A DNA stretch of 64,000 nt from the NCBI RefSeq assembly GCF_021496725.1, contig NZ_CP051215.1, positions 558,001 to 622,000 of the forward strand. Direction: 5' to 3'. Under the pieces are notes generated by a model, which was not told the DNA's origin, made no database searches, and was given only the letters and a program-made list of their open reading frames with translations. This DNA is from Spiroplasma platyhelix PALS-1. Its GTDB lineage: Bacteria; Bacillota_I; Bacilli_A; Mycoplasmatales; VBWQ01. The first letter of the stretch is position 1; each line of letters starts with the position of its first letter. Shown here piece after piece: positions 12,777 through 57,188 of this stretch. Both the position numbers and the translations under genes were made by a program.

Positions 12777-14120
12777 ATGGCAAAAAAAAGAAAAAAACAC
12801 ATTAAAAAATCAAGAAAAAAAGAGATCAAAAAATCAAAAAGAAAATTAATCAAAAAACCAATCATTAAGAAACTACATCTTAAAAGAAAAAACATCAATA
12901 TTAACGCAAATATCTTATTAAACAAATGAATTTGAATCTCATTAGGAGCAGCCTTTCTTGTTTCAGTAGCAATGTTTATTACTTTTTTCATGCTGAAAAA
13001 TAAAGGTCAAATCACTTTAACATACACTGTACTAACAATAATTGCTTTAATTCCTTTTGTTATTTTTATTCTTTACTGAGGAGCAATTGCCATTGCATTT
13101 CGTTTAATTTTTAAAGCAATCACAAAAGATATTGAAAGAGATGCTGTCTTTCCTATTGTTACTTCTTTTTTAATTCAAGAACCAGAAATCTCAGTTAAAA
13201 AATATATGGAAAAAGGAAATCTTAATAAAATTAAACGCTATAAAACAGCAGCTTCAAAATTACTACTTTACACAATTATTATTGTTGTTTTGTTTATTGT
13301 TTTCAACTTTATTTTTGTTGGATTAACACAATTAAATGTTATCGCAGTTTCAACATCATGATTATATTTATTTGGTTTACTATCAAATGTTATCTCGCTA
13401 GTTTTATCTGCTGTCTTTGGATTTATGGTAAGCAACATCATCAATGCTCCAGCAAAATTTGAAGAAAAATATCAAGGAATCAAGACTAAACTTTACAACT
13501 TTAAAGTTTTCTTAAATGTCAACGAAATCAAAAAAGTTGATTCGCAAAAATTAAAATATCGCTTTATTGACTTTCTACCACTTTACTTCTATCAGTCACT
13601 TTTAATTTCTGAAATCAAAGAAGAACAATACATTCAAGAATTAGAAAATTGAAAATACTATCTTACTTTATCTTCTTACTTGAATCAATTTAGTTGACTA
13701 CTATTTCTTCACTATGCAATTAATAAAGATGAGCAACTAAAATTAATTAAAAAATCAAAATATATGACTAAACTAGCAAATCAAATCCAAAAAGTTCATA
13801 AAATTTTATTTCACACTACTAATGAATATATCTATTTCAACAATGACTATAATGCAAAAGAACTAGAAACAGAATACAACCAACTAATCAACATTGTCAT
13901 TAGATATCAAAATCGTTTTGCTCTACGAATGATTACAGCCTCATTACAAAAAAATGGTCTTAAAATTGCTGAAACTATTAGTGAAAATAAAGATGAGAAC
14001 ATCATCGACGAACGAGATGTTGACATCAATTTCTTTCAATTAAATTATTTAGAATATTTATTCTCAATTATTTTCACTACTGATAAAGATGCTAAAAGTA
14101 AAGAACACTTCAAATACTAA
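12777..14120 (+). CDS. Membrane protein with very basic N-terminus, function unknown
   Basis: A 447-residue protein I do not recognise. Residues 1-40 are extremely Lys/Arg rich (AKKRKKHIKKSRKKE and onward, about half basic). Four hydrophobic helices follow: roughly 56-78 (ISLGAAFLVSVAMFITFFM), 90-112, 165-186 (LLLYTIIIVVLFIVFNFIF) and 196-222. The remainder is a cytoplasmic-type region rich in Lys, Glu, Tyr and Asn. Six or more TGA codons fall in Trp-like positions, so it is a single frame. It is the only plus-strand gene in the first 15 kb, inserted between coaBC and rpmA (divergent and convergent respectively), where Bacillus has no equivalent. No enzymatic motif is visible. Confidence 0.85.
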
Positions 14121-15270: not shown

Positions 15271-15358
15271 AACACCTCCAGTTTAGACTCGCCTCGTAGG
15301 TGGATTTATCATCACTTTCGTACCCATAAGAAGTGCGGTTGAAACTGCATAAACAGTC
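15271..15358 (-). promoter_or_regulatory. Ribosomal protein L21 leader RNA
   Basis: Untranslated leader between the promoter and rplU. Read on the minus strand it contains CCGCACTTCTTATGGGTACG followed by AAAGTGATGA and a CCACCTACGAGGCG element, with complementary segments (CGCACTT pairs with AAAGTG). This layout fits the Firmicutes L21 leader family thought to mediate autoregulation of rplU-ysxB-rpmA. Family assignment is from memory of the consensus; a covariance search would settle it. Confidence 0.65.
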
Positions 15359-29108: not shown

Positions 29109-29183
29109 TGGCTGGGGTGGATGGGATTGAACCATCGCATGTAGGAGTCAAAGTCCTATGCCTTACCGCTTGGCTACACCCCA
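29109..29183 (-). tRNA. tRNA-Gln (anticodon TTG)
   Basis: Acceptor TGGGGTG / CACCCCA, anticodon stem TAGGA / TCCTA around CTTTGAC giving TTG, encoded CCA. Confidence 0.95.
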
Positions 29184-29194
29184 ATCATAAATAA

Positions 29195-56798: not shown

Positions 56799-56945
56799 TT
56801 TAATCCTAGGATTAAAAATCTTAAATCTTGTCTCTTTTCATAAAGAAACAAGATTTTTCTTTAAAAACAGAAAAATATATTTATTTTTTAAAAAAAGAAT
56901 AAAAAATTTCCTTGCTTTTTAAATTTTATTTGTTACAATTCTTAT
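56799..56945 (+). other. Intergenic region with hairpin and promoter-like elements
   Basis: AT-rich gap after the second lipoprotein. It has the inverted repeat AAATCTTGT...ACAAGATTT (about 56824-56856, followed by TTCTTT), which probably ends the lipoprotein transcript, and TTGCTT (56912-56917) with TACAAT (56934-56939), a 16-bp-spaced promoter for the RNA candidate that follows. Confidence 0.6.
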
Positions 56946-57188
56946 AAGGATTTAAGCTTATGCATAAGTCCTTTTATAAGGTAATATGTAACTTTTTAAG
57001 AATACTTGAATAGATAACAATATATAATTAATTTAAAAAATTAATCTAAAAACCCCTAATTTAAACTCTATACCCCAATAACCTTAAGTTTTATTTATAA
57101 AAAATAAATAACCCCCCCTTTTTTTATAATCCATATTGCCTTAGATATTCTTGTATCACAAGAGTCAGAAATGACTCTTGTTTTTTTT
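56946..57188 (+). ncRNA. Candidate small RNA, about 243 nt, unassigned
   Basis: A free-standing transcription unit without a coding frame. It begins after a promoter (TTGCTT, 16 bp, TACAAT) and ends in a strong terminator (CAAGAGTCA-GAAA-TGACTCTTG then T8, 57159-57188). Near its 5' end lies an imperfect hairpin of about 14 bp (CTTATAAGGATTTA against TAAGTCCTTTTATAAG, 56941-56980). The centre has single-strand-like C-runs (AACCCCTAAT, ATACCCCAATAACC, and C7 at about 57112). It is not RNase P RNA, tmRNA or SRP RNA by any motif I know. It could be a 5' leader of polA, but a separate TATAAT sits past the terminator. Confidence 0.55.
57159..57188 (+). terminator. Terminator of the RNA candidate
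   Basis: 9-bp GC-richer stem with a GAAA tetraloop (CAAGAGTCA / TGACTCTTG) followed by eight T. Confidence 0.9.

Follow-up and report, generated by a model that had tools for sequence, protein, structure and literature searches.

A stretch between a gene of unknown function (end 56798) and polA (start 57285) of Spiroplasma platyhelix PALS-1 very probably harbors a free-standing, conserved small RNA (sRNA) gene restricted to the S. ixodetis/JKS002669 lineage. As far as sequence and comparison set it apart, this gene is a new lineage-restricted family within a type of molecule already known; the gene itself, its conservation, its helices and its independence of polA are all read from the DNA and its relatives. 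Positions refer to the window, i.e. the whole 64-kb stretch that was analyzed (558001-622000 of a genome of 744,499 bases in a single contig), and features lie on the + strand unless marked otherwise. Long reading frames open in the window when TGA is read as Trp.

The predicted transcript comprises ~243 nt (56946..57188), with ends placed according to an extended -10 and the T-run of a terminator; homologs delimited likewise by promoter and T-run are 221-244 nt long. The promoter (56912..56939) combines a weak -35 (TTGCTT, 56912-56917) with an extended -10 (TGTTACAAT, 56931-56939), with 16 nt between the two hexamers, and the predicted +1 falls at about A56946, six bases past the extended -10. 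With only 3/6 positions of the -35 fitting, it escapes a simple promoter scan. The spaced promoter that an earlier note on this DNA had described is present in this form and is conserved in relatives, the identity between two genera being 0.81 vs 0.58 directly upstream. At the other end lies an intrinsic terminator (57158..57188) with a 10-bp stem (57158-57181), a GAAA loop and a T8 run (57181-57188), just as the same note had it; the stem is retained in relatives despite changed bases, and a terminator scan found 2 candidates vs 0.4 in shuffled sequences. After the upstream gene we also observed a long AU-rich inverted repeat (56823-56856), which is terminator-like on the minus strand.

The predicted fold of the transcript has an energy of -50.4 kcal/mol, vs -26 for shuffled sequences (z = -7.2), to which the terminator contributes a part. 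Starting from the predicted +1, a 5' hairpin (P1, 56946..56973) is predicted in 9/9 species, in agreement with the hairpin proposed earlier; in the nine sequences 98.8% of its cells are paired, with one pair changed on both sides and three changed on one side. It is followed by a long-range closing helix, P2, formed by the 5' arm UAAGGUAAUAUG (56977..56988) and the 3' arm CAUAUUGCCUUA (57132..57143), in which 99.2% of cells are paired and two pairs carry changes on both sides (nine sequences). For P1 and P2 together, 99% of pairs are kept and three have both partners changed; in a control in which one partner was slid by 1-3 columns, pairing over the whole structure falls to 26-46%. With sequences so few and so alike, the covariation is modest. 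Comparative folding in relatives, recommended in the earlier note, yields helices kept with compensatory changes.

The interior between the P2 arms is AU-rich and displays a near-invariant C-rich core of 46 nt, AAATTAATCTAAAAACCCCTAATTTAAACTCTATACCCCAATAACC (57038..57083 in the nine-genome comparison), with two CCCC runs, predicted to be unpaired with a probability of 0.97-1.00 for the first (57053..57056) and 0.99-1.00 for the second (57073..57076) in nine species. Farther downstream lies a C7T7 tract (57112..57125), whose C-run (57112-57118) is likewise predicted to be unpaired and whose length varies across species (C5-C8, T6-T10). In each of the nine predicted folds every C-run is 97-100% unpaired, so by prediction the description of these tracts as single-strand-like holds. 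The same applies to their conspicuousness: this is the only spot in 64 kb with three runs of at least four C inside 70 nt, and such a triplet arises in 53/5000 random placements. The earlier count of three CCCC-type runs plus a C7, on the other hand, has to be revised: besides the C7 there are two C4 runs, which makes three runs in all; the C-rich tracts themselves are real. Between P2 and the terminator is ATTCTTGT (57147..57154), identical in 9/9 sequences, which could pair with ACAAGA of the terminator 5' arm to form an antiterminator-like alternative (57147-57163).

Analysis of the phylogenetic distribution revealed the element as a single copy, with promoter and terminator, in 9/9 sampled genomes of the S. 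ixodetis group, the family to which this bacterium belongs; carriers include S. ixodetis SHM, the Danaus chrysippus endosymbiont and strain JKS002669. Between two genera, the segment that holds the core (57031-57096) reaches an identity of 0.90 with gaps counted, compared to 0.68 for polA DNA, 0.44 for a linker within the RNA and 0.29 after the terminator. Among the nine genomes the 46-nt core varies only by insertions of A or C and by one A/T change. In the copy from the Danaus chrysippus endosymbiont (L009, 1485-1652, - strand) the stretch between two AACC repeats has been lost, a deletion that leaves C7T7 joined to the second CCCC run. In blastn searches of 40 relatives, full-length matches were confined to the family, and the 31 genomes outside it gave no homolog, only short AT-rich matches. 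When the family sequences served to build a covariance model, it recovered the same nine genomes, with 0/139 other genomes of the order among the matches listed; a diverged form could be missed in this order-wide search because of Infernal's stricter filters and the limited candidates. Eleven polA loci of other families, scanned with the covariance model without filters, gave only chance-level scores. An origin from a phage or plasmid was rejected, as no match was found in phage, plasmid or viral-contig collections.

No reading frame is common to the nine homologs, in keeping with the absence of a coding frame asserted in the earlier note; the frames differ between species, and none survives in the core because insertions within it break any frame. 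A small peptide as the product was therefore rejected. The search of Rfam returned no family match, and at E up to 10 only chance-level matches. The tmRNA, SRP RNA and RNase P RNA give no covariance match here and are each located elsewhere in the genome, and 6S RNA was rejected for want of a covariance-model match at the locus, the permissive threshold included. The RNA thus stays unassigned, as the earlier note had it. Elsewhere in the window, the ribosomal protein L21 leader was matched at 15275-15350 (- strand) with 36.2 bits, vs the Rfam cut-off of 36. Within the literature searched, we found no described Spiroplasma sRNA of such a kind and no paper on 6S RNA in Mollicutes. In an RNA-seq study of two mosquito-associated Spiroplasma species, highly expressed intergenic RNAs were sought, and those reported were limited to tmRNA and RNase P RNA (PMC5726471); the genus is shared, but our searches recovered the sRNA described here only in the ixodetis-type family.

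The position ahead of polA invites the view that the element serves as a leader of that gene, possibly as a cis-acting attenuator in which ATTCTTGT pairs with the terminator 5' arm and lets transcription read on into polA under some condition. Consistent with this, the sRNA lies directly upstream of polA in four genomes, with no predicted gene in between (G000, G004, G005, G007), and the invariant ATTCTTGT is complementary to ACAAGA in 8/9 sequences and to GCAAGA (through a G-U pair) in the ninth. However, the 10-bp terminator stem is stronger than the alternative of about 6 bp, and in the other five genomes polA no longer adjoins, while promoter, core and terminator are all intact: a two-gene cassette on the opposite strand intervenes in G001 and G002, insertion-type genes do so in G003 and G006, and in G008 a rearrangement has placed the sRNA and polA ~1.7 Mb apart. 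Moreover, a promoter-like extended -10 is found directly ahead of polA itself, and a similar one at polA of relatives taken as citri-type, which are without the element. Since the element has been separated from polA in five genomes and yet is intact, and since polA has a promoter-like -10 of its own, we regard it as a separate gene, which probably stood beside polA ancestrally. A general role as polA leader is rejected, given that the position is not kept in G001, G002, G003, G006 and G008, and attenuation of polA appears very unlikely. The cassette that separates the sRNA from polA in two close relatives (L099, 5415-7245; L100, 4700-6658) consists of an AAA_21 ATPase, with AbiLi as its best PADLOC match, and a partner of 200-211 aa, for which the L099 copy gave no match in Pfam or PADLOC scans; from its composition, it is likely a defence pair.

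The earlier note had suggested that the clustered C-runs pair with G-rich Shine-Dalgarno sequences. We examined this for the 54 predicted ribosome sites in the window (~9% of the genome), using 100 shuffled versions of each tract. The C-tracts bind the 54 sites better than they bind coding sequence; they are no better than shuffled tracts, falling short of the shuffled mean by ~0.8-1.1 kcal/mol, and the large majority of the 100 shuffles of every tract averaged no worse than the true one. Any C/U-containing sequence would therefore serve equally, and broad anti-Shine-Dalgarno action is unsupported. Three ribosome sites in the window contain GGGG, and two of the respective genes were compared across relatives. 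One (12777-14120) encodes a predicted membrane protein of 447 aa without a Pfam match and was dismissed as a target, as it has no homolog in the other eight family genomes; the other, dnaB, has homologs in 9/9 genomes, and its GGGG is not preserved in relatives. For the starts of polA, fpg, dnaB and dnaI, pairing across the family is not above shuffled (mean z +0.2 to +0.6), and these four genes were likewise rejected as targets. Thus, the proposed Shine-Dalgarno pairing is not borne out at the ribosome sites of the window, and no target site tested is conserved. Sites for the complement of CCCCAATAACC, with at most one mismatch, are fewer than those for the reversed pattern in each of the nine genomes, a deficit that carries little weight, the reversed pattern being a poor control for coding sequence, and that could reflect codon usage or avoidance. 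In G000 the sole such site is the sRNA itself. An average over 54 genes is compatible with a regulator of few targets, and the RNA may act selectively on a few mRNAs encoded outside the window.

Among the described RNAs, the closest in anatomy that we considered is IsrR, the iron-sparing sRNA of Staphylococcus aureus, which has three C-rich regions predicted to be single-stranded, including one of C4-C7, and whose authors argue that AT-rich genomes contain few G-rich stretches other than at ribosome sites (PMC9410917). Both RNAs come from low-GC hosts, are free-standing, and combine stem-loops with three unpaired C-rich regions and an intrinsic terminator (PMC9410917), and in both one C-run is of variable length (C4-C7 in IsrR vs C5-C8 here). 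IsrR differs in being Fur-regulated and in having its C-rich regions in or beside short hairpin loops, vs the large helix-closed interior found here; no sequence similarity to it emerged in the Rfam search, and no conserved target was found here among those tested. RsaE/RoxS and FsrA of Bacillales would share, if the pairing idea is right, C-rich unpaired motifs directed at G-rich ribosome sites, and they are unlike our RNA in length, core sequence and architecture. None of IsrR, RsaE and FsrA gave an Rfam match beyond chance at E up to 10, a result to be read with the proviso that an Rfam model of each is not assured. The sRNAs predicted for Mycoplasma hyopneumoniae and its relatives are likewise trans-encoded candidates from Mollicutes with multiple predicted targets (PMC5088518), but they are software predictions, each from one genome, vs nine-genome conservation and covariation in the present case.

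The anatomy of IsrR, together with the rarity of G-rich stretches, makes Shine-Dalgarno pairing a reasonable idea as a mode of action, and from this likeness trans-acting antisense control is our best guess. That the sRNA acts in trans through base pairing of its C-rich core has, in our estimate, about an even chance of being correct. We infer the transcription of the gene, as well as its action by pairing and its targets. The free-standing gene of ~243 nt would be expressed from its own promoter and ended by its intrinsic terminator; P1 would cap the transcript at the 5' end, and P2 would close a mostly single-stranded interior that displays the invariant C-rich core and the C7U7 tract. The exposed C-tracts may then initiate pairing at the rare G-rich stretches found in a few mRNAs, and the pairing would alter the translation or stability of those mRNAs, as with IsrR, RsaE/RoxS and FsrA of other bacteria with low GC. 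Against such pairing stands the lack of gain over shuffled tracts, both at the 54 ribosome sites and at the starts of polA, fpg, dnaB and dnaI. The 46 near-invariant bases also exceed the usual sRNA seed, and protein binding or a structured role would fit them equally well.

A protein or stable-RNA partner for the sRNA is possible, albeit on the unlikely side. We consider somewhat less likely still the specific notion of a protein-binding or scaffold/sponge RNA, in which the invariant core would be a protein recognition surface presented as a large loop by the closing helix; conceivable partners would be proteins of the cold-shock or KH type and, in a 6S-like manner, RNA polymerase. The near-invariance of the core over more than the length of a usual seed, its placement within a loop that a covarying helix closes, and the lack of enrichment of complementary sites in the family genomes all agree with a protein ligand. 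On the other hand, no similarity to 6S or any other Rfam family appears even at a permissive threshold, and the interior is nearly bare and AU-rich, while the architecture of 6S RNA is double-stranded. A bolder version, in which an abundant, lineage-defining RNA of a new functional class, limited to a single branch of a bacterial group with reduced genomes, would have its core fixed by a specific protein or stable-RNA partner and its complement avoided in the genome, strikes us as improbable. Pairing with a stable RNA can be phrased concretely for tRNA-Gln(UUG), whose 5' end is complementary to CUAUACCCCAAU, so that the sRNA would act on the tRNA or its precursor: the match covers 12 nt with one G-U pair (29174-29185, - strand), runs into tRNA-Gln at its 5' end (29183), and takes in this end plus two preceding bases. 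S. ixodetis-type genomes, however, have an extra A (CUAUAACCCCA) that would bulge the duplex, and a chance match is likely here, the G-rich spots of this genome being its tRNA genes. The complementarity of CUAUACCCCAAU to tRNA-Gln is probably fortuitous, and action on this tRNA is highly improbable.

The S. ixodetis group comprises heritable symbionts of arthropods, some of which are male-killers. Hardly any work has been done on regulatory sRNAs of Spiroplasma, and the nine-sequence model described here could found a new RNA family. Public metatranscriptome reads of S. ixodetis DCF, stranded and depleted of rRNA, exist under PRJNA658344 (PMC8025503), and the predicted sRNA could be looked for in them without delay. 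For bacteria that possess few transcription factors, a conserved RNA with a nearly fixed core would offer a concrete way into the study of their regulation.
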